Shown: one piece after another, positions 5,638 through 62,200 of the stretch
Layout of the letters: each line of letters starts with the position of its first letter
Numbering within the stretch: the first letter of the stretch is position 1
Source: a virus
DNA length: 64,000 bases
Reading direction: 5' to 3' (one strand)
Virus record (IMG/VR): IMGVR_UViG_3300014720_000001
Coordinates: 62,001-126,000 of that record
The notes under the pieces: generated by a model
Database searches by the model: none
Seen by the model: the letters and a program-made list of their open reading frames with translations, nothing else
Told to the model about the DNA's origin: nothing
Made by a program: the position numbers and the translations under genes

Positions 5638-7518
5638 TCACGGCTTCCACCCGCTTGTTGTGCCGATGACGCCAAACTGCTCGCCCTGCGCTAATGCCGG
5701 CACATAACTACTGCCAGCTGTATCGCTACTTAAGCCGCGCTGGACGCTATTCATCAGCCCTTTTTCCTGATAGGACCCCAACATTCGAGTCATCCAGTCG
5801 GGGTCGTTTGAAATGTTTGCCATACCCCGTACCATCTCCGGCTGAAACGGTGGCGGCTCTTTATGCGCCTGTACTGTTTTCACGCCGTATTTATTCAAGT
5901 TACTGAGCACGTTTTTACCGATCTTCGTGCCAATTGAGTAGTGCAGTACGGGTTTTTCTAGATAATGTCCGGAAAGCGAGCTAGGTGCGGCAGCTACACT
6001 TCCCTCGCGCGGAGTCCAGTTGCGCTCGATTGCGGAGTACGGCACAACGTCGTCAGGCACGTAATCGCCGTACTCGTCCGTCAGGCGCACGTGATTTACA
6101 AGTCCGCGCGCCAGTAGCTCGATGTTGCGCCGATGGGCTGTAATTCCGCTGTTACCCATTACCTGCCGCATGGCTTGCACAAAGTAGCGCCGGCCTTCGC
6201 CGATTCCTTTGTGCCTGACAATTTCTGAAGGATTTGGCATACCGTCTGATAGAACGTCGCCAGCTTCCAGCTCGTCGCCTTTTTTAATAGAAAGCGCGCG
6301 CTCGGTCGGGACGTAGTGGTCTTGTCCGTTAATTTGGACATAGTGCCCGCCTTGGGGAGCCGGGCGAATTTCTTGTACGCGGCCGTCGATTTGAGCGTGC
6401 GCGGCCCCGTCTGGATATTTTTTTGGCACCTGCACGAGCGCGTTGAGAGCTTTAAACCCCGAAATCGCCCCCGCGCCGCCGACACCGCCCGAGTGTTTCG
6501 AGCTGATCTGGCTTTGCGTGACGGGCTCGGACAGGGCTTGCGCCGCTGCGATGCCCACATAATCGCCAACAGGCGGTAAACGCCCTTTCTCTCGATAGCC
6601 GACGTCTCTTGCATAAACTCCGCCGTCTCCGGGACCGCCTACAATTGGGCTACGAACTAAAATATCTTTAGCGCCACTTTCTTTCAGGTCGCGCAGAATT
6701 TTGGGCGTTAATATCGTGTTTCGCTTGTACGGCCCCACCGCGCGCGCCAGTAACGCGCCTTCATTGTCGGGGTCATCTACGTCGGTCGGGTAGCCGCGTT
6801 CTTCTGCGGCCATACGGCGCTCTTCGTCGGTGTCGTCGTCATCGTCGGCTGTGACCAACAAACGGTGCGTCATCTGCGCCAACTGCTTGCCGTAGAAACC
6901 AGCGTCGGCCGTCGCGGTCTTCAGGTCGATCACGCCTTTACGGGTACCGAACGCGCCGGCAAAGTACTCCACCGGGCGTAAACCTTGGCTGTAACCGCGC
7001 AACACCGGAATTGGAATCGGTTCGCCGCGGTGATCTAGGTACTGCATGTCGGCGCCGAGAATTGAATTCAACTGAAACTTGTTGCCGACGCCAGACCCGG
7101 CGATTTGATGGACGAGGGGGTTATCCTGCCCTTCCGCTTCTTTGTAGACCTTGTCGAGAAGTTCTTGCTGGGCTGTTTGAGCAAGTTCAAGCAGTTTGAC
7201 GTTGCGTTGCTTTTCGTCGAGCCGTCTGTCGGCAAAAATGTCGCGCATCTGGTTTTGTACGCGCAACTGAACGTGCCGAGCCGCCAGCGTCGGTTTGATA
7301 TCTTTAAGCCCGAACGACAGGCCGTTAGTCGTGTACCCAGCATCACGGCCAATATCGTGCAACCGCTTCATAACCTCGCGATACTTTTCCGGGTGGGTTT
7401 TCGCCAGCTCGGTTGCGAGGCCCGACATTGTCTTCTTAGTTAAAACGCGGTCATAGTCGCGCATTTCTGGCGGCAGTGCTTCGTTTACCAGAAGTTGACC
7501 GAGCGTCGTTTTGAGCAT
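5638..7518 (-). CDS. DNA-directed RNA polymerase, C-terminal part of beta-prime (bridge helix and trigger loop)
   Basis: 626 residues. Residues about 140-225 match the beta-prime region leading into the bridge helix: GVGNKFQLNSILG, then FAGAFGTRKGVIDLKTATA and GFYGKQLAQMTHRLLVT, equivalent to the bacterial STHGARKG...LTRRLVDVAQDLVVT. Residues about 318-345 (VGDYVGIAAAQALSEPVTQ, then SSKHSGG) match the trigger loop, and the His equivalent to E. coli H936 is present. An acidic insert DDDDDTDEE follows the bridge helix. The catalytic DFDGD motif is absent here; it lies at the C-terminus of the 8501-12919 product. The two chains must assemble to form one active site (inference from the known enzyme). 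About half the length of bacterial beta-prime. Confidence 0.95.
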   Translation of the reverse strand: MLKTTLGQLLVNEALPPEMRDYDRVLTKKTMSGLATELAKTHPEKYREVMKRLHDIGRDAGYTTNGLSFGLKDIKPTLAARHVQLRVQNQMRDIFADRRLDEKQRNVKLLELAQTAQQELLDKVYKEAEGQDNPLVHQIAGSGVGNKFQLNSILGADMQYLDHRGEPIPIPVLRGYSQGLRPVEYFAGAFGTRKGVIDLKTATADAGFYGKQLAQMTHRLLVTADDDDDTDEERRMAAEERGYPTDVDDPDNEGALLARAVGPYKRNTILTPKILRDLKESGAKDILVRSPIVGGPGDGGVYARDVGYREKGRLPPVGDYVGIAAAQALSEPVTQSQISSKHSGGVGGAGAISGFKALNALVQVPKKYPDGAAHAQIDGRVQEIRPAPQGGHYVQINGQDHYVPTERALSIKKGDELEAGDVLSDGMPNPSEIVRHKGIGEGRRYFVQAMRQVMGNSGITAHRRNIELLARGLVNHVRLTDEYGDYVPDDVVPYSAIERNWTPREGSVAAAPSSLSGHYLEKPVLHYSIGTKIGKNVLSNLNKYGVKTVQAHKEPPPFQPEMVRGMANISNDPDWMTRMLGSYQEKGLMNSVQRGLSSDTAGSSYVPALAQGEQFGVIGTTSGWKP

Positions 7519-7519
7519 G

Positions 7520-7759
7520 TCACGGCGTCCACACTATGTTCTGCATCGACTTAGGTTGAAAGTCAGAGACAACTACTGTCTTTTCGATGCCGAGCGCACG
7601 CAACATAGGGTGAAAGTCTTTTTCACCTACAGTTGAATACACGATGGCTTCGTCAACCTGAATGGCCACAAAAAGCGGGTTGCCTTTGTCGTCTTCAACA
7701 ACAACGCTGTGCGCTTTTTGATCTGTCGGCTGCAGGCTGTGCTGCGTTTTAACCCGCAT
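7520..7759 (-). CDS. Small hypothetical protein encoded between the RNA polymerase genes
   Basis: 79 residues from the ATG at 7759, overlapping the end of the 7749-8480 gene by 11 bases; its stop is one base before the start of the beta-prime C gene. The protein is compact and mixed alpha/beta (VVVEDDKGNPLFVAIQVDEAI, MLRALGIEKTVVVSDF) with no Cys or membrane segment. The tight coupling on both sides suggests co-expression with the polymerase, so a polymerase-associated or assembly role is possible. No family recognised. Confidence 0.75.
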   Translation of the reverse strand: MRVKTQHSLQPTDQKAHSVVVEDDKGNPLFVAIQVDEAIVYSTVGEKDFHPMLRALGIEKTVVVSDFQPKSMQNIVWTP

Positions 7760-8480
7760 TGTCCGCAATACTCCGAAGCATGGCTGCGATCGCGTTCGCC
7801 TTGATCTGCGTTGCTGTCGGAGCGTTTGGGTCTTGATAGCTGGGCCCAAACGGACGCCCGATCGACGCGGCCGCCTTCTCGGAACGGTCCCACCACGCGG
7901 CTGCCTTCGACGGGTCGGCTTCGGGCGGGGCGGCGTTCGGGGGCATGGGTCCGCCCGGAGGCGTCGGACCGCCCGGAGGTTGCATGCCGCCCTGCGCGTT
8001 CGGGTCTTGCGGCGGCGGCGCCATCGGGCCGCCCGGAAGCGCGGTTTCAGCCGGCGGGGCGCCAGTTGTGCCCGGCGGCAGCACCAGCGACTCGGGCGGC
8101 ACCTGAACGCCCATCGCATTCATAATGGCCGTGAGCTGCTGCTGCATGTTGTACAGCCGGTAGTCAAGCATCTGCATCATCTGCTCGGGCTTGAGCTTTT
8201 GCTGCGCGCCGGCAGGAGCTGCGCCCGGAGCGGCGGGTGCGGCGGGCGCTGCGGGAGGTGCAGCGGGAGGCGCCATTCCCATAGCCGCTGGATCCACTGG
8301 CGGTGCAGCTGCTGCAGCGACAGCAGACGGATCGGCCGGCGGTACAGCCCCCATGGCGGCTGGGTCAACCGGCGGAGCACCACCAGCAGCAGCGGGATCC
8401 ACCGCCGCTCCGGGCACTAATGCAGATTTTTCAAAGCGCGCTTTCGCGAGCGCGATAAGTTCGGGGTTGACCGTGAACAT
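7749..8480 (-). CDS. Proline/alanine/glycine-rich protein encoded between the RNA polymerase genes
   Basis: 243 residues. A short N-terminal helix (NPELIALAKARFEKSA) is followed by about 60 residues of repeats of the type PPVDPAAMG / PPADPSAV, then a helical stretch (EQMMQMLDYRLYNMQQQLTAIMNAMG, about 108-133), another Pro/Gly-rich linker, and a C-terminal helix ending at the overlap with the next gene. Low-complexity linkers with two short helices suggest a tether, scaffold or virion protein. It lies 20 bases downstream of the beta/beta-prime N gene. No family recognised. Confidence 0.8.
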   Translation of the reverse strand: MFTVNPELIALAKARFEKSALVPGAAVDPAAAGGAPPVDPAAMGAVPPADPSAVAAAAAPPVDPAAMGMAPPAAPPAAPAAPAAPGAAPAGAQQKLKPEQMMQMLDYRLYNMQQQLTAIMNAMGVQVPPESLVLPPGTTGAPPAETALPGGPMAPPPQDPNAQGGMQPPGGPTPPGGPMPPNAAPPEADPSKAAAWWDRSEKAAASIGRPFGPSYQDPNAPTATQIKANAIAAMLRSIADNAG

Positions 8481-8500
8481 ACGACCTCCGTAGGTAAGAA

Positions 8501-11500
8501 TTACTTATTATCTTCCACAATATGCACCGGGGTGTCTACTTCAATTTCGCCGCGCCGGTACGCCTGCACGGCATCCTGCTTGCTACGAAACACCCGCGGT
8601 TTAGACTTTTTGTTAATCCGGCTCGACGCCAAGTATAGCCCGGTTTGGTAATCCTTGTTCGGCACGTAGTGCGCCCGGAACGTCGAGGCGGCAAACAAGT
8701 TCTTGCTCGGCAGCATCTTTTCGACGGCTTCTTGCGCGGCGTCGTCCGTGCTTGGCACGTGGTACTGCATGGCGTCGCCGTCGAAGTCGGCACCAAACCC
8801 CTTGGTGATTACGGGGTTTACTTCCATGACTTTGTTCTTAGTTAACTTGGGGTAGAACGCCATCATGCCGTAACGATGGAGTACCGGCGCGCGGTTAATC
8901 ACAATTGGGCGCGACGACATCTGCTTGTTTAACTCAGCCGCGGCTTCTTTGTTCTTGTCTTCTACCGCCTGCATAGCCTGCATGCGGGGAAGACCGCGGC
9001 GGACCAACCCGCGGACAACGAACGGTTTGTAAATATCCCACGCTTTCTCTTCCGGCAGCGCGACTTCGTCCATGTCCAAATCGGGATTCGGCGTGATCAC
9101 CGCGCGGCCGACGAGATCTACCGTCGAGCTGAGCAGCTTGCGCTGAACTGTGCCGTACTTGGGAGAGTTCCCAAACACGTGCCGCAAGAAACCCTTGACG
9201 TTGCGCTCGACGTTTTTGGGTTGTTGCGGTTCACCTAAGCCAGTCACCGCCTTCATCGAGTCGTACACACTCAGCCGCTCGTCGCCGTAATCTGCCAGCG
9301 CGCCCGATGCGTCTTTAAGCGTGTCGTTGGCGTCGAGCAATTCTTTGTACAAATAGTTTGCGTCAGCAACGAGCGGAAGCTTTTTGTTACCCATCGTGCT
9401 GACCGGGCGGAACATGGGTGGCAGGACCGGGACTTTACTAATCATCCAGTCCTTGGGGTGCACACCGGTTGTTTCGGCGCTCTTTAAAAAACCAAGCCGA
9501 CGCACTGCAGCATCGCGCAGGGTTTTACGCCCTGATTTAATATCTTCGCGCGCCTGCTCAATGGCTTTTGGTAAGTTAATGCGTTCCAGCGCGGCTTTGA
9601 TCGCCGTCGGTCCGGTTTTGTCGCCCAGCTGTTCACGCCCGGCCAGTATGCCTCGAAACTGCTTCTCCGTTAGGCCCAGCACGCGGCGGATCGGGTCTTC
9701 CATAACGGGGTTGGGCAGCGGCTCGTGCAGCGTGATCTTGCTCCACCGGTTACCGCCGTGACCACCTGTTAATGTTTCATCAAACAACCCACCAGCAATA
9801 GGTTTGAGGCGGCCCTTCCAGTCAACAGTTTCAGAACTCTTTAACTCGCGTGCGCCAGCCAGTTCATCGACGTCCTTGTCCGTCATGGCCATCAGATTTG
9901 AACGCGTACCTTTGCGCACAACGTTAATCCCAGACGCGCGAAGTTGATTTACAAACTTCTCGTAGACGTGCGGCACCTTGGGCAGCGGCGGTGTATACCC
10001 AGCCATGAACTGCGACCAGTATTCGGGATTGGCCTGCCCGCGCACCATTTTGGCGTCACGAATAACTTTGCCGGCCCCGTGCGACAGTAGCGCGCCGAGA
10101 TCGAGCATGCCGACGCGCTTAGCGCCCTCGCTGCCGCCCTTGGCCGGCGTGCCTTCAGCGGTATACGCGCCCATCGAGCGACCCTGCGCCTTCGACTCGC
10201 TGGTGTGGTGCAGTTTCATGAAAAACCGGCTGCCCGTCAGGACGCCGCCGATTTTGCGGCCGGTCTCTGGGTCGATAACGTCTTCGGTATCTGATAGCCC
10301 GTGCTTGGCCAGCTCTTTCTGCGCAAACTCAATCAAGTCGTTTTTGTTATCAAAGTCCTTGAGCTTGTACGGCGAACCGGTTTTCATCGCCACTTTACCC
10401 AGCGCAGCTTCGATCACCTGCGCGGGGTTAATGCGGCTGATTAGACCCAGCGGCGAGACAAGCACTTCAAACGGATTGCCGTCGCGGTCCTTGGGCATCT
10501 GGTCGTCCGGGACGATCTCTGCCACGACGCCCTTGTCGCCGAAACGCCCGGTGAGCTTATCGCCGACGTCCATGGGCGCTTGGTTTTTAACAACGACGCT
10601 CACGCCCTTTTTGGTGTGCATGACATCGGTTACAACCCCGGGCGCATGATGATCCCACGTGATCGTTTCGTTAGTGAAGCTGCCGGCACGCCCGCGATGC
10701 ACCTTGCCGTATACCGTGTCTTTTTTCTTTGCCACAAGCACGAGTGGATCGCCAAATTTAACCTCGGTACCTTTTTTAATCGCACCGTCGTCGTCAAACT
10801 TGTCGAGGTACTTTTTGTCGTACTCGGTCGGGAACAAACTCACGAACGCCTTCTTGCCAACGTGAGTGTTGTCGTCCCACTCGGCTTCGTGCTGATACAT
10901 GTGCTCAGACGTCAGCCGTTTGGATGCAGATTCAGAAATCACTACGGCGTCTTCGTAGTTTTTGCCGCGAAAAGGCAGATAAGCCGTGCGCAAGTTAAGT
11001 CCAAGAGCCGCGCTACCGTTTTGATCGGTAAAATTTGAGCGGGCTAACAACTGCCCCGGATTCACTACGTCGCCCGGTTTTACAAGCGGCGTCTGATGTA
11101 AGAACGTCTTACGGTTGTACGGCATCTCGTTGTACAGATCGATCGTCTTTTTGTTGCCGTCTTTGTCGCGCAGCACGATACCGTCCGGCGTAACATCAAC
11201 AACTTGCGCCCGCTCGGTGGCCCGCGTGGCGCCTAATTTCTCGCCCATTTCGTCTTCGTGCGACATGCTCTCGTCGTCAGCTTTGGCGGACTGCAGCAGC
11301 GGCGCCTCAGCGTTTACGAGCGGAAGCGCCTGCGTAAACATTCGACTACCCATGATCACGCGATGACCTTTGATCATGGACTTGATCGGCACCATGTTGG
11401 ACAGCGTCGAGAACGTTGTGTCCATGTTTGGCAGGCTGAACTGCGCTTCTTTTCGCGGCACGTACTTGAGCTTGCCGTTTACAAGCGCGGCTACGACAGG

Positions 11501-12919
11501 TAACCCGTTGTCTTCTTCGCCCGGAAACACGAGCGGGGTATCAGATAACTCTTGCGGCGTCTTGTACACCTTCTCGCCGGTTTTCATATCTACAACAGGC
11601 GTATAGACCTTGCCGTCCGCGCCTTTCATAGCGCCGCGGGCAAACCGCATGTCGACGCCCACTTTTCCAGACTCGGGCGTGCGGAGGTAGTCGATAAAGC
11701 CGAGATGGCTGGGTTGCACAGAACGCGACTCAGCGGGCACGGCGTCGAGCGAGCCGATGCCGCCCTCGCCCATGCGCGTTACGCGGGTCTGGTGGTCAAA
11801 GATCTCGGCCGGGTTGATCTCTTCTAAGCTCGACCCCAGCCCGCTGCCGATCAACGCCGCAGAAATAGCTTTGTCGAATACGCCGGACGGAATGTGGTCA
11901 ATCGACTTTTTAGCCGTGGCTTTCCAGAGCAGTTTATTTAGTGCTTGCCGATCTTTAGTAAACCGCTCAGCAATAAGGTCTTCCGGGCCGACAACTGACT
12001 GGTACACCATGTTGTCGCGGTCGTCGCTATCGGCCTCGCGGCGATTCACTGCGATTAATTTCTTAGTGATCGCCAGAATCGTCTCCGGCGTCATGTTCTT
12101 GTATTCAGACCCAAGCGTGCGGCGGGTAACTTCGGGGTCAAGTTCAGTCTTGGCAAACTCCGCGGCAATAGCCTGCGCTTTCGCAATCGGATCAGCGCCG
12201 GCAACCTGTTTATTCACCAGCCGGGCATAGATCTTGTCCATCGTGCCCGCGTCGCCCTTCTCCATGTTGACCGCGGTGATCTCGTTGCCCCACGCCGAGC
12301 GGATGTCCTGATCTGACACGCCCATCGACTTGAGCAGCGGCATGAGCGGAATCTGCGCCTGCCCAATGCTAATCTTGAACACGCCGGTTTTGGGGTCGAG
12401 GAAGTACCGATGCGAACGGCCTTTGCCCGGCAGCGTGTTTACGTGCGCTTCAATCTCGCCGTTGTCTTTCTCGCGGGTAAAAACGCCGGGGCGCAACCGC
12501 ATCTGGTGCGCAAGTGTGTACTCCACGCCCCCGTTTACGAACGTGCCGGAGTCGGTGAGATAGGGCACGTGCGCAATCGTGGCGCGCCGCTGGCCGACGG
12601 GCTGGCCGGTTTTGTTATCTGTAAGCGTCCACGTACCCTGCAGCCGCCGGGCAAGTGTCCCGCGGGAAAGGACAGCTTTCTTCTGATCTGCCCTTGTGAA
12701 ACGTTCGGGCCCCGTGTACCCGACGTCTTGAAGTTGCAGCGTATACAGGTCGTTCTGCAGCGGTTTAAGACCTTGCGCGCTGGTGAGCGCTTGGTTGAAG
12801 ATGTTGTCGCGCATCACACCAACGTCGCCGAACGAACGCATCGTCGGCGCAGCTGACTGCGCAGCTGACTGCGCAGACAACGACGGCGTCGTTTTAAGCG
12901 GTGGCAACTCGGGGGTCAT
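8501..12919 (-). CDS. DNA-directed RNA polymerase, beta subunit fused to N-terminal part of beta-prime
   Basis: 1472 residues. Beta motifs in order: PYLTDSGTFVNGG...LRPGVF (about 115-145; bacterial TDNGTFVINGTER...RSPGVF), GKNYEDAVVISE (about 650), GDKLTGRFGDKGVV (about 786) and the C-terminal beta region HTSESKAQGRSMGAYT (about 905-925). Beta-prime motifs follow without a stop: ELKSSETVDWKGRLKPIAGGLF (about 1022-1043), PVLPPMFRPV, NRAPVLHRYGMMAF (about 1339-1352) and GADFDGDAM (about 1376-1384), the Mg-binding motif, with Gly in place of the usual first Asn. The zinc-binding Cys cluster normally found after the GLF motif is missing. The chain ends about 90 residues after DFDGD, so bridge helix and trigger loop come from the 5638-7518 product. 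Fusion of beta with part of beta-prime is unusual. Confidence 0.96.
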   Translation of the reverse strand: MTPELPPLKTTPSLSAQSAAQSAAPTMRSFGDVGVMRDNIFNQALTSAQGLKPLQNDLYTLQLQDVGYTGPERFTRADQKKAVLSRGTLARRLQGTWTLTDNKTGQPVGQRRATIAHVPYLTDSGTFVNGGVEYTLAHQMRLRPGVFTREKDNGEIEAHVNTLPGKGRSHRYFLDPKTGVFKISIGQAQIPLMPLLKSMGVSDQDIRSAWGNEITAVNMEKGDAGTMDKIYARLVNKQVAGADPIAKAQAIAAEFAKTELDPEVTRRTLGSEYKNMTPETILAITKKLIAVNRREADSDDRDNMVYQSVVGPEDLIAERFTKDRQALNKLLWKATAKKSIDHIPSGVFDKAISAALIGSGLGSSLEEINPAEIFDHQTRVTRMGEGGIGSLDAVPAESRSVQPSHLGFIDYLRTPESGKVGVDMRFARGAMKGADGKVYTPVVDMKTGEKVYKTPQELSDTPLVFPGEEDNGLPVVAALVNGKLKYVPRKEAQFSLPNMDTTFSTLSNMVPIKSMIKGHRVIMGSRMFTQALPLVNAEAPLLQSAKADDESMSHEDEMGEKLGATRATERAQVVDVTPDGIVLRDKDGNKKTIDLYNEMPYNRKTFLHQTPLVKPGDVVNPGQLLARSNFTDQNGSAALGLNLRTAYLPFRGKNYEDAVVISESASKRLTSEHMYQHEAEWDDNTHVGKKAFVSLFPTEYDKKYLDKFDDDGAIKKGTEVKFGDPLVLVAKKKDTVYGKVHRGRAGSFTNETITWDHHAPGVVTDVMHTKKGVSVVVKNQAPMDVGDKLTGRFGDKGVVAEIVPDDQMPKDRDGNPFEVLVSPLGLISRINPAQVIEAALGKVAMKTGSPYKLKDFDNKNDLIEFAQKELAKHGLSDTEDVIDPETGRKIGGVLTGSRFFMKLHHTSESKAQGRSMGAYTAEGTPAKGGSEGAKRVGMLDLGALLSHGAGKVIRDAKMVRGQANPEYWSQFMAGYTPPLPKVPHVYEKFVNQLRASGINVVRKGTRSNLMAMTDKDVDELAGARELKSSETVDWKGRLKPIAGGLFDETLTGGHGGNRWSKITLHEPLPNPVMEDPIRRVLGLTEKQFRGILAGREQLGDKTGPTAIKAALERINLPKAIEQAREDIKSGRKTLRDAAVRRLGFLKSAETTGVHPKDWMISKVPVLPPMFRPVSTMGNKKLPLVADANYLYKELLDANDTLKDASGALADYGDERLSVYDSMKAVTGLGEPQQPKNVERNVKGFLRHVFGNSPKYGTVQRKLLSSTVDLVGRAVITPNPDLDMDEVALPEEKAWDIYKPFVVRGLVRRGLPRMQAMQAVEDKNKEAAAELNKQMSSRPIVINRAPVLHRYGMMAFYPKLTKNKVMEVNPVITKGFGADFDGDAMQYHVPSTDDAAQEAVEKMLPSKNLFAASTFRAHYVPNKDYQTGLYLASSRINKKSKPRVFRSKQDAVQAYRRGEIEVDTPVHIVEDNK

Positions 12920-45371: not shown

Positions 45372-45489
45372 GTAAGAAAAAGCGGTTGAATTTCTTACAG
45401 CCAAACAACGTAACATATTGCTACACATAGACTTACGACAAATGCGGAATTCCGGCGCGGCGTAAGTCTTTGTGCAGCAACATGTTACG
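45372..45489 (-). ncRNA. Two adjacent long hairpins, putative small RNA or leader
   Basis: Arm 45409-45437 pairs with 45461-45489 over 29 positions with three differences; two become G-U pairs only in the minus-strand RNA, favouring that direction. The adjacent GTAAGAAA (45372-45379)/TTTCTTAC (45391-45398) forms a second perfect stem. They lie between the terminator at 45499-45539 and the small ORF at 45208-45300. Function unknown. Confidence 0.5.
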
Positions 45490-45498
45490 CCTAATAGC

Positions 45499-45539
45499 TA
45501 AGAAAAAGCGCGGTCAGGGTCCGAAGACCACTGCCGCGC
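45499..45539 (-). terminator. Rho-independent terminator (after 45546-45776)
   Basis: Minus strand GCGCGG (45539-45534), inner GGTC-TTCG-GACC, CCGCGC (45513-45508), then TTTTTC. Confidence 0.7.
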
Positions 45540-46313: not shown

Positions 46314-46350
46314 CTAAAAAAAAAGCCGGCAGGGGAGCGCACCCCTGCCG
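46314..46350 (-). terminator. Rho-independent terminator
   Basis: Minus strand CGGCAGGGG (46350-46342), loop TGCGCT, CCCCTGCCG (46335-46327), then nine T (46324-46316) and AGC. It has no protein gene directly upstream; the preceding 430 bases hold the structured element at 46417-46756, which it probably terminates. Confidence 0.8.
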
Positions 46351-46416
46351 ACTAATGACGAATTAACGAGTCGCCACCCGTGCCGAAGCGACCAATCGGT
46401 CGCCAAAAGAGCGTTA

Positions 46417-46756
46417 GCACATGGCATGCCTGTAAGGACAGGTATCACTACCCGCCTACGTCCTGCAGCCGTTTGTTAGGTCACAGACAAGCGCGCAGTG
46501 TACGGCCGCGTGCTTTTGTTATTTAAAACTAGTCTGACAGGGCTTTCACCTGCACCGCCCGCTCCCCTAGCCATAATGTAGCGTAGTCGAGCGGAGTCGC
46601 TTGTAGTAGCCACGAGGCCCGGGCGGGGCTGCCCGCTACTACTTAATCTACCCTAACGGTTCCTGCAAAACATTTCACCACGCCTGCTCGTTACAAACGC
46701 GTACGTGCACCTAGAGATAGGTTCATACACACGCTTCTTACAGGCATGCCATGTGC
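46417..46756. ncRNA. Putative large structured RNA closed by a perfect 20-bp stem
   Basis: 46417-46436 (GCACATGGCATGCC...) and 46737-46756 are exact inverted repeats enclosing 300 bases with no gene. Inside: GTAGTAGC (about 46602)/GCTACTAC (about 46634) enclosing CGGGC/GCCCG; AAGCGCGC/GCGTGCTT near 46490-46514; ACCTA-GAGA-TAGGT near 46709-46722; CAGG/CCTG; and a possible long-range GCAGCCGTT/AACGG..CTGC. Plus-strand folding gains a GNRA loop and G-U pairs, while the terminator at 46314-46350 supports minus-strand transcription, so the strand is open. Motifs of RNase P, tmRNA and group I/II introns were not found. Confidence 0.65.
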
Positions 46757-46785
46757 CAACGTCGGGATTCTAGCGTCCCTGTTGG

Positions 46786-46989
46786 CTATGTCAACGTGTC
46801 GATATAGTGCTGGATGGCACATATCTTTCTCAGCAGCGCCTCTTCGGCCTCGGGGCCAATATCTTGCGCGTCCATGTCGTTCACCAGCCCGACCAGCGAG
46901 TTTTTGATATTTAACAGCCCGCGGCGAAGTTGTTTAACTTCCACCTCAGTTTCTGTCTTATACCTCGTCCCGGCTTTCGTCGTCACCAT
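46786..46989 (-). CDS. Small helical hypothetical protein
   Basis: 67 residues from the ATG at 46989 (GGAGG about 11 bases upstream). Helical with an acidic middle (LVNDMDAQDIGPEAEEALLRK). The longer frame to 47070 overlaps the upstream gene more. Last protein gene before the structured RNA element. Confidence 0.62.
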   Translation of the reverse strand: MVTTKAGTRYKTETEVEVKQLRRGLLNIKNSLVGLVNDMDAQDIGPEAEEALLRKICAIQHYIDTLT

Positions 46990-52030: not shown

Positions 52031-52316
52031 ACAGACTCCTTTCGTGAAAAGATATCAAAAAGTCTCGCCGCAAGGATGTGGTGATCGCACGTATTGCTAC
52101 GCTCCCACGCACATTAAGGCTCGTAACTTCCCCTTGCATTTCGCAACGCTGTACACACGCTGCCGAGACAAGAATTAAAAGCGCCCAACTGGGTGCGGTG
52201 ATGACGGCTTACGCGCTTGCCGCGTTGCGTCGCCTACGTTTCAGCCGATTCCCGCGGAGATTAAGGCTCGTAATTTCCCCCAGCCGGGCTTTTTGTTGTG
52301 CGGTTTATTGTACAAA
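52031..52316. repeat. Intergenic region with a two-copy direct repeat
   Basis: ATTAAGGCTCGTAAYTTCCCC occurs at 52113-52133 and 52260-52280 with one difference; similarity extends about ten bases to the left. No convincing gene: the plus-strand frame covering it has no ribosome binding site and Arg-rich shadow-like sequence. The right copy overlaps the region just before tRNA-Leu(TAG). Possible RNA-processing or regulatory element. Confidence 0.45.
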
Positions 52317-59258: not shown

Positions 59259-62200
59259 TAGATGATCGTCAAAAGCGCTGCGCGGCTGTATCCAATGTTT
59301 GTCGTGCCGCAGCCCGCGCGGACACGATATTGATTTCCGTTGTCGGCACCGGGAGTGAGCGCTGTATCTGTAACTGACGCGCCAGTTGCAAACGGAATAT
59401 CTTGCCAACCACCATCAAGGCCCTTCTTTTGCCATTGATATGTAAACGACGAATAGGTTTGCCCAGTTGTTCGCCCAATACCGGTAGCGGACGCCGTAAA
59501 TGTAACCGAACCCGTGACACTAGAATCAATCACCGTATCTTGCGGCTCTGTGGTAAACGAAATGCTCAACGGTTCGACCGTTAACAAAGCGGCGTCGCTG
59601 ACGGCTGTTTGAAAACCGCTTTTTGCTTCAATGCGGTAATACGTTGCATTGTCTGCAAACGTCAAATTTGTTAGCGCAAGTGTAACGCTCAGAGGCTGCG
59701 CAAACTGCAGCGGATATGTTTGAATGGTTTTCCAGTTGTAACCGTCGTTGTAGTACTGCCACGAGCCGGCTGGATTTCCGGCGCCATCAGCTTCATGAAT
59801 AATCCAATAGCCGTCATACCAAAACAAACAATACATATTGTCAGCTTTGCGATAAAACTGTTTACCGTTGTACGCGTTGTTTGAGCTAACCGACGGATAA
59901 TACGTGCCATTGATAGCGCGTTTACCAGCTGCTGTTACTTGCAACGCGTACAGGTTTGTGCCATTGTTTAATGCACTTGGCGGCGTGAAATTTGCCGTAT
60001 ATCTTGCCGCGCGGGTAATCCGCAATTCGTCGGTGTAATCGTTGGCCGCGGCAAAAATAGTTGTGGTACGTTCTGTAGTAGTGTCGCCGACTTGTCCGGA
60101 GTATGTGAAATCGCCAATGGACAAGCCATTAACATAACAACGAATAACAGAAGACGAAGACGCCACATTGCGCACAAGCGCTATGTGTGTCCATGTCTGC
60201 GCGCTGACATGTTGCGCGCCCGTCAGCGTTTGCGGAGAACCGCCGTTGATCTGCAGATACAGTTTTGAGTTCTCTAAATACAAGTCAGTTAAATTGACGC
60301 CCAGCGTGCCGCTAGAGAACAAATAACGTTTTGTTGTTGTGGCGTTGAAATAAAACCACGCTTCAACGGTAAAACTACTCGGCAGAGTAATGTCGCCGGA
60401 AAAATTGACAGATGCGTTTGAAAGACTGTACGTGCCATACTTTTTATTTGCTGACGTCAATCCGCCCGGGCCGTTGATTACCCCATAAAATCGATTGTTA
60501 CTGATATCACTCAAGCCGGTTTCAAAATTAGTAAATAGCGCGACAGCACTTGCCAGCGCGTCTGGGTCAGCCCACGTAAGCTGAGCGCCCAGTGTCGGTG
60601 GCGTAAAATTTGCGGTGTAACGACATACGCCGTTTGTAATTCTGACTTGCGCCATCTGCCCTTCAAAACCACGACTGGTGGCGCCCCATACGCCAGCGTA
60701 ATCGCCAATTTCTAGCGTGTTACCGGCAGTTACAGGATTTGTATATGTCGTACCGTAAACGACCTGTCCGTTAAAAAAAATTTGAAAAACAGCTCCGCTG
60801 CGTGTTACCGCAATGTGCACCCACGTATTTAACGGCGGCGTAATACCGGTGTCGGCACCCATGGCCCAATAATTGCCGCCCCACCAATACGACATTGGCG
60901 AATAAAAGTACAGCCGATTGTTACTTTCCAAAAGAAGAATCCAACCAGTTACGTCACTGTTGGAATGCGTCATTACAAGCGCTTGATACCCTTTGCTATT
61001 GTTTGAAAATTTAAACCAACCCTCGATCGTAAAATCGCCGTTAAACGTGAAGTTTGAGCCGCTGGATACTGTCAATGCGTCGTCTGTGCCGTCAAAAGTA
61101 CCCGCTCCGCCGTTGCTGCCGTCAGGTAGAACAGTTGTTGTTACCTTTAAATTGCCGCCGCGCACTAACGTGTTTGGCGCTGGTGACACATCTGTAAACG
61201 TCAAAGAGTTATTGGACCCGGTCATTGGTACCAGTAATGCAACTTGATTAAAAGCCGGGTCAAGATTGCTGGTCGGGAACGCGGCGGTTGGCGGAGAAAA
61301 CGACGCCGGATAACGCGCCACGCCGATTGTCAACCGTAAGTCGTCGATGTAGCCGTCAAAATACGGATTTGAGCCGGCGTTGTCCCAACGTTTTCCGACG
61401 TTGAAGTTAAGCGTCGGGCTGTTGATGCTGCTACCCGTTACACCAAAACCAACCACTACGCCGTCGTAAAACAGATAAAAAAAGTTTCCCTCGCGCACAA
61501 CAGCGACGTGCACCCATTGATTCAACGGCAAATCTGTTCCGGCTGTGATATGAATGTGCCACCAACTGCCGTTGTAGCTTGCAAAAAACAATCGGCGACC
61601 TAGGTCTTCAAAGCCGTTTGGGCCGTGAAAGCCGAACGCAATACTAATAGGCGTGCCGGCGTGTTGTTCGCTGATGATGCACCCGCTCATTGTATCCGAC
61701 CGCATGTACACCCACGCTTCAATCGTGAACGGGGCGTCGCTCAGCGCCATATTGTTATTTGTAGCTGTCGTAACGACGCCGGTGCTACCGTTAAATTCAG
61801 CGCTGGCGGCCCCGTACTTTTTAAAGTTTGTGCGAATATTTGCACCCGACGTCGCCTGCAGTGCGCGCGCGTTCACAGATAAATCCACAAACCCGGTATC
61901 CATCGTCATCAACAGGGCGACATTTTTGAAGTACGGGTCGCCTGATGAGTTTGTTGGAACCGCCGTCGTTACTTGCTTGAGATACGGTACAGGCGCCGGA
62001 GCGTTTGCATACTGCGGATCGCCCCACCCCGTTTGCGGATCATCGGCGATCCACGGGTTGCCGGTAATAGGCGTGTCAGAGTTTTTATCGGCCTTTTGCC
62101 ACGAGACCGTAATCGGATCTTCCCAACGGCCGGTTCTATAGGCATTAGCCGTAAATGTCGCGCTAAACGTGCACGACGCGTTTACGTCTGACGGATTTTG

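Follow-up and report, generated by a model that had tools for sequence, protein, structure and literature searches.

The locus and its transcription signals

Our subject is an element on the minus strand of a 64,000-nucleotide (nt) stretch of phage DNA (the window), positions 62,001 to 126,000 of the IMG/VR record IMGVR_UViG_3300014720_000001. The parent phage record is 204,621 base pairs (bp) long and encodes its own RNA polymerase genes, transfer RNAs (tRNAs) and a transfer-messenger RNA (tmRNA). An earlier note on this DNA had described a gene-free stretch of 340 nt with exact 20-base inverted ends and a minus-strand terminator just beyond it. The perfect ends are present (46417-46436 with 46737-46756) and form the core of a longer 25-nt pair that is 96% complementary (46412-46436 with 46737-46761), with 300 nt between the arms; the sole exception in this pair becomes a G-U pair when it is read on the minus strand. 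Every frame is stopped across the element on both strands and no open reading frame runs through it, so it is indeed gene-free. The terminator is also where it was said to be, while the size of 340 nt did not hold, as the transcription unit is longer and spans about 46761-46316. The signals that define this unit are as follows.

46767-46794, minus strand: sigma-70-like promoter, with TTGACA (46794-46789), a 16-nt spacer and TAGAAT (46772-46767); 11/12 matches
46764-46779, minus strand: GGGA-CGCTAGAA-TCCC, a small inverted repeat enclosing the -10 box; its two arms vary in concert among relatives
46316-46761, minus strand: predicted RNA gene of about 445 nt, beginning just 3' of the promoter and ending with the T run of the terminator, with inferred transcript ends
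46324-46353, minus strand: intrinsic terminator, a stem-loop of 12 pairs (46353-46324) followed by a T run

The length of about 445 nt is predicted because the helix closed by the 25-nt arms (P1) begins about where transcription would start. The pattern TTGAC-N15-18-TANNAT occurs once in the window, and since about two occurrences are expected by chance on both strands, the position of the promoter weighs more than its rarity. Of the 8 close copies of the element (window included), 7 retain TTGACR with TAGAAT or TACAAT, the exception being that on contig L014. The inverted repeat around the -10 box has the arm variants GGGA/TCCC, CGGGT/ACCCG and TGGA/TCCA among relatives and could be an operator or a promoter hairpin. 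At the other end the terminator lies between the RNA and the following gene, thus the RNA is not a leader of that gene. The predicted fold of the minus strand has an energy of -166.4 kcal/mol compared to -129.4 kcal/mol for shuffled sequences (z -6.7; 0 of 100 shuffles as good), and that of the plus strand is weaker (z -4.1). Together with the covariation described below, we take the element to be, almost certainly, an autonomous gene for a structured non-coding phage RNA.

Homologues, covariation and the predicted fold

Protein and DNA searches found homologues that are about 82-93% identical on the IMG/VR contigs L007, L009, L010, L014, L015, L017 and L131, with identical copies of L007 on L004, L005 and L008 and of L015 on L006, as well as a strongly diverged homologue, L130. 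The set represents few independent lineages. Flanking gene order is kept among the relatives, and each carrier tested has one copy. The RNA core is 82-85% identical to that of L004/L006, while the flanking gene pieces are mostly at 66-80%, with a few higher.

Alignment A2 (7 sequences, window included) gave a consensus of 144 pairs, 29 of which have changes on both sides. With this structure held fixed, 63 cells have both-side changes and 99.1% of cells are paired. The percentage is inflated because structure and count come from one alignment; the both-side changes are less easily inflated in this way. The covariation score was 0.267 versus 0.145 for shuffled alignments, and none of 500 shuffles was as high for paired cells, both-side pairs, both-side cells or the covariation score. 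Further pair types were not exceptionally numerous (76/500 shuffles). Sliding the partners by 1-3 columns dropped the pairing to 36-44%. There are 143 G-U cells against 4 A-C cells, and this marks the minus strand as that of the RNA. A covariance model built without L130 detects L130 at 51.6 bits (E 2.7e-14), compared to 39.4 bits, or 12 bits less, for a sequence-only model.

There is no conserved reading frame, with all frames stopped in 8 copies and single-base insertions and deletions in alignment A2. A 32-codon AUG-to-UAA frame inside the RNA is open in most copies, and was rejected as coding because a one-base insertion shortens it in L014 and the AUG is absent in L131. The earlier note had read the element as a candidate new large RNA, and had proposed an Rfam covariance search and a collection of homologues with a test for compensatory changes among the ways to check it. 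The former gave no match to the element and the latter gave abundant compensatory changes; coding conservation in one frame, which the note named among the outcomes that would speak against an RNA, was not found. All of this supports the note's reading. The RNA has a compact, multibranched predicted fold that P1 closes, and its helices and loops are listed here from the outer helix inward and along to the 3' tail.

46737-46761, minus strand: 5' arm of P1, 25 nt; both-side changes at 9/25 pairs (7 sequences)
46412-46436, minus strand: 3' arm of P1, 25 nt; partner of 46737-46761
46703-46734, minus strand: hairpin A (helices 2-3), carrying the near-invariant AUGAACCUAUCUCUAGGUGCA
46679-46701, minus strand: hairpin B (helix 4), with both-side covariation at 4/8 pairs
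46652-46673, minus strand: 5' strands of the inner closing helices 6 and 7, AUGUUUUGCAG then GUUAGG
46603-46642, minus strand: hairpin C (helices 8-9), with both-side covariation at 3 pairs
46555-46594, minus strand: hairpin D (helices 10-11), including UCGACU and CUAGGGGAGCG
46537-46553, minus strand: T-loop-like hairpin GCAGG-UGAAAGN-CCUGC, near-invariant, also in the diverged L130
46484-46536, minus strand: helices 13-15; helix 15 is very variable (6/10 pairs covary) beneath a 7-nt loop
46499-46505, minus strand: loop of helix 15, CCGUACA, with palindromic GUAC; candidate self-kissing loop
46458-46480, minus strand: 3' strands of helices 6 and 7, holding the conserved internal segment CCUAACAAACGG
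46437-46456, minus strand: hairpin GGGUA-GUGA-UACCUG adjoining P1; the GUGA hairpin is near-invariant
46387-46404, minus strand: 3' tail hairpin GGCGACC-GAUU-GGUCGCU, then UCGGCACG; also present in the shortened (mini) allele described below

With L131 and L130 added (9 sequences), 13 of the 25 pairs of P1 covary; its outermost 10 bp and the tail hairpin are conserved at the sequence level. The near-invariant letters of hairpin A are AUGAAC..AUCUCU.GGUGCA and those of the internal segment are CCUAAYAAACGG, and the RNA tail UCGCUUCGGCA is near-invariant across copies. The hairpin at 46537-46553 has the consensus GCAGG-UGRAAGN-CCUGC across copies and may be a T-loop. The loop of helix 15 is invariant with GUAC in 8 copies and reads CUGAUCA, with palindromic GAUC, in the ninth (L130). 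A 'GAGA-capped' stem had been reported by the earlier note; the stem is there, and GAGA is the plus-strand reading of what is a UCUC loop on the RNA strand. When extra covarying pseudoknot helices were sought in the alignment, only short and ambiguous candidates were obtained.

Several candidate homologues were dropped. The motif matches in L011, L012, L013 and L016 had nothing but the 16-mer in common, and matches to the T-loop pattern outside the clade were coding DNA or an unrelated tRNA-like RNA. The latter recurs in the viral contigs L141, L148, L167, L170, L173 and L176, where it combines an acceptor-like stem and a T-loop hairpin (UGAAAGU) with GAGCUCGAAA and AGAGCGCCUCAUUUUGCC; it has no Rfam match and no ARAGORN call in these contigs. 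A weak model match in G039 was ordinary-looking sequence without a long closing repeat. A further possible match, in G065, has E 0.07. The near-full-length records outside the clade (G012, G036, G039, G040, Salmonella phage Arash and Vibrio phage D69) gave no convincing match.

The mini allele and the possible role of the RNA

In phage G025 the 300-nt interior is absent and P1 is closed by a 7-nt loop, with the 3' tail hairpin and the terminator kept. The RNA-polymerase tree joins G025 as sister to G037, the phage of the diverged but full-length L130 RNA; the other full-length carriers branch outside this pair. Given this position, loss is the simplest account, and the missing interior would most simply be a deletion in G025. 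P1 and the 3' tail would be the anchor module and the 300-nt interior an accessory domain.

We propose that the RNA acts in trans as a folded molecule, rather than by way of a peptide that it encodes or as the leader of the gene that follows. It would fold through the T-loop-like hairpin and a tetraloop hairpin, and may associate with itself through the palindromic loop of helix 15 (GUAC/GAUC). During infection it would be a scaffold made of RNA, working as ROOL and GOLLD do, while being a member of neither. A cryogenic electron microscopy study of OLE, ROOL and GOLLD took palindrome switches as support for symmetric kissing loops (PMC12286853). The switch from GUAC to GAUC is why an architectural and possibly self-associating RNA is favoured here, and it is suggestive only. 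We put the explanation as a whole, an independent structured RNA gene with a trans-acting architectural role, at about an even chance; an architectural or self-associating mechanism, taken by itself, is plausible but somewhat doubtful. The most specific form, in which the element would found a new family of architectural phage RNAs that assemble with themselves as a dimer or larger through the palindromic loop, have a removable 300-nt interior and are unrelated to ROOL and GOLLD, seems unlikely.

Some of the data weigh against this proposal. The loop switch is a single change event, and once one inner base changes a new palindrome would arise about 1 in 3 times by chance. The discrete transcript is predicted, and a homodimer or cage is hypothetical; the sigma-70-like promoter is kept neither in L014 nor in the two most diverged copies. 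Additionally, at least one lineage does without the interior.

The main rival to the architectural reading is a protein- or ribosome-binding RNA. Here the RNA would act in trans as a decoy or regulator that binds one partner, such as the phage or host RNA polymerase, the ribosome, a nuclease or a defence protein, with P1 and the 3' tail doing the binding and no self-association. The survival of P1, the tail and the terminator alone in G025 fits with this, as do the conserved sequence at the outer end of P1 (10 bp) and in the tail hairpin and the presence of the phage's own polymerase subunits and tmRNA. The partner is only hypothetical, however, and at least 8 relatives keep the large interior, which has a covarying fold of its own and goes beyond the needs of a simple decoy; we would call this rival possible, though on balance it is not the probable answer. 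An RNA that regulates phage or host messenger RNAs by base pairing through exposed loops, for instance AUCUCU or UUCGGCA, would account for the near-invariant loop sequences and the free-standing transcription unit. It is improbable, as the size and complexity far exceed those of usual regulatory RNAs and the molecule is mostly tightly paired.

The other two alternatives start from the shape of the locus. A long inverted repeat with 300 bp between its arms, and an interior that is absent in one relative, could point to a structure in the DNA or RNA that acts in cis in replication or packaging, as the earlier note had considered, or to a small mobile element with terminal inverted repeats. This is disfavoured by the excess of G-U over A-C cells and the flanking promoter and terminator. 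The G-U pairs lie on one strand only, the internal hairpins covary, and the element has the same position in the relatives examined with one copy per genome, making such a structure very unlikely. The mini allele also resembles P1 minus its interior, as if it were the empty site of a degenerate catalytic RNA or intron (RNase P, group I/II intron or retron RNA) lodged in the P1 loop. We consider this very unlikely as well. Rfam had no match on the RNA strand to E 5 and none of relevance in the relatives to E 2, no reverse transcriptase or endonuclease family is found among the neighbouring genes, and the covarying part of P1 adjoins the interior and so belongs to the fold.

Novelty, neighbouring genes and comparison with known systems

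Large structured phage RNAs of unknown purpose, such as ROOL and GOLLD, are a long-standing puzzle. By sequence, the element is a new family of large phage non-coding RNA within this known kind of large structured phage RNA of unknown function, and its carriers are a group of jumbo phages. With curated as well as permissive thresholds Rfam gave nothing relevant for the element (RNA strand, to E 5) or its relatives (to E 2), and the models for RNase P, group I/II introns and tmRNA did not match the element. The sole listing there is a chance Clostridiales-2 match on the other strand, at E 0.43 and far below the cut-off. The ROOL and GOLLD models matched neither the window nor the relatives, permissive thresholds included. 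DNA similarity searches of isolated phages and plasmids gave no match, the exact motif was absent from 84,980 bacterial and archaeal genomes (GTDB), where an exact-pattern scan misses diverged copies, and open-access literature searches found no description of this RNA. The collections searched are incomplete and hold many fragmentary records.

The family is an independent one of moderate size, in which covariation is strong and both promoter and terminator are clear, and a naturally occurring deletion allele splits the core (P1 and tail) from the accessory interior. The role of such RNAs thereby becomes directly testable. If it does self-assemble through its palindromic loop, it would be a further phage RNA assembly that is unrelated to ROOL and GOLLD.

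Other features of the neighbourhood were noted. A long imperfect intergenic hairpin lies at 45385-45515 (CGUAACAU..AUGUUACG, z -5.4), and in L004, L129 and L130 similar hairpins, with CGTAAGTC, follow the RNA gene on its downstream side. The phage tmRNA (51484-51838, minus strand) scores 144.8 bits with Rfam, is not called by ARAGORN and adjoins six tRNA genes; it is also present in the relatives L004, L006 and L182. In the tRNA cluster, 52050-52310 (minus strand) holds two tandem copies of GGGGAARUUACGAGCCUUAAU inside stem-closed units, with at least one copy conserved in L006, L010, L014, L015 and L017. This region may be another small RNA; it was rejected as a second large RNA, its overall fold being unexceptional (z -1.1). 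Split RNA polymerase beta-type subunits are encoded at 5638-12919 (minus strand), the larger about 33% identical to its Salmonella phage Arash counterpart, and the related contigs L025-L098 of IMG/VR represent large phages in a graded series.

Among the known systems, the phage's own tmRNA is likewise structured, close in size and encoded nearby, but it is a separate gene and the element has no tmRNA match. ROOL too is a non-coding RNA of large size and intricate structure that occurs in phages and prophages, often close to tRNA islands, and is of unknown function (PMC12286853), and the gene described here lies about 5 kb from the tmRNA and tRNA cluster. The element differs in its size of 445 nt, compared to a 659-nt ROOL example (PMC12286853), in its architecture and in the lack of a ROOL covariance match. 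As in GOLLD, the 3' tail and P1 outlast the interior, although many GOLLD RNAs exceed 800 nt and the element has no GOLLD covariance match. ROOL forms an RNA-only multimeric cage and GOLLD is cage-forming too; for the element any multimer or cage would be hypothetical. OLE has known protein partners, is not described as a phage RNA and does not match the element; it is, like the element, a large non-coding RNA, and one with a symmetric kissing loop backed by palindrome-switching covariation (PMC12286853).
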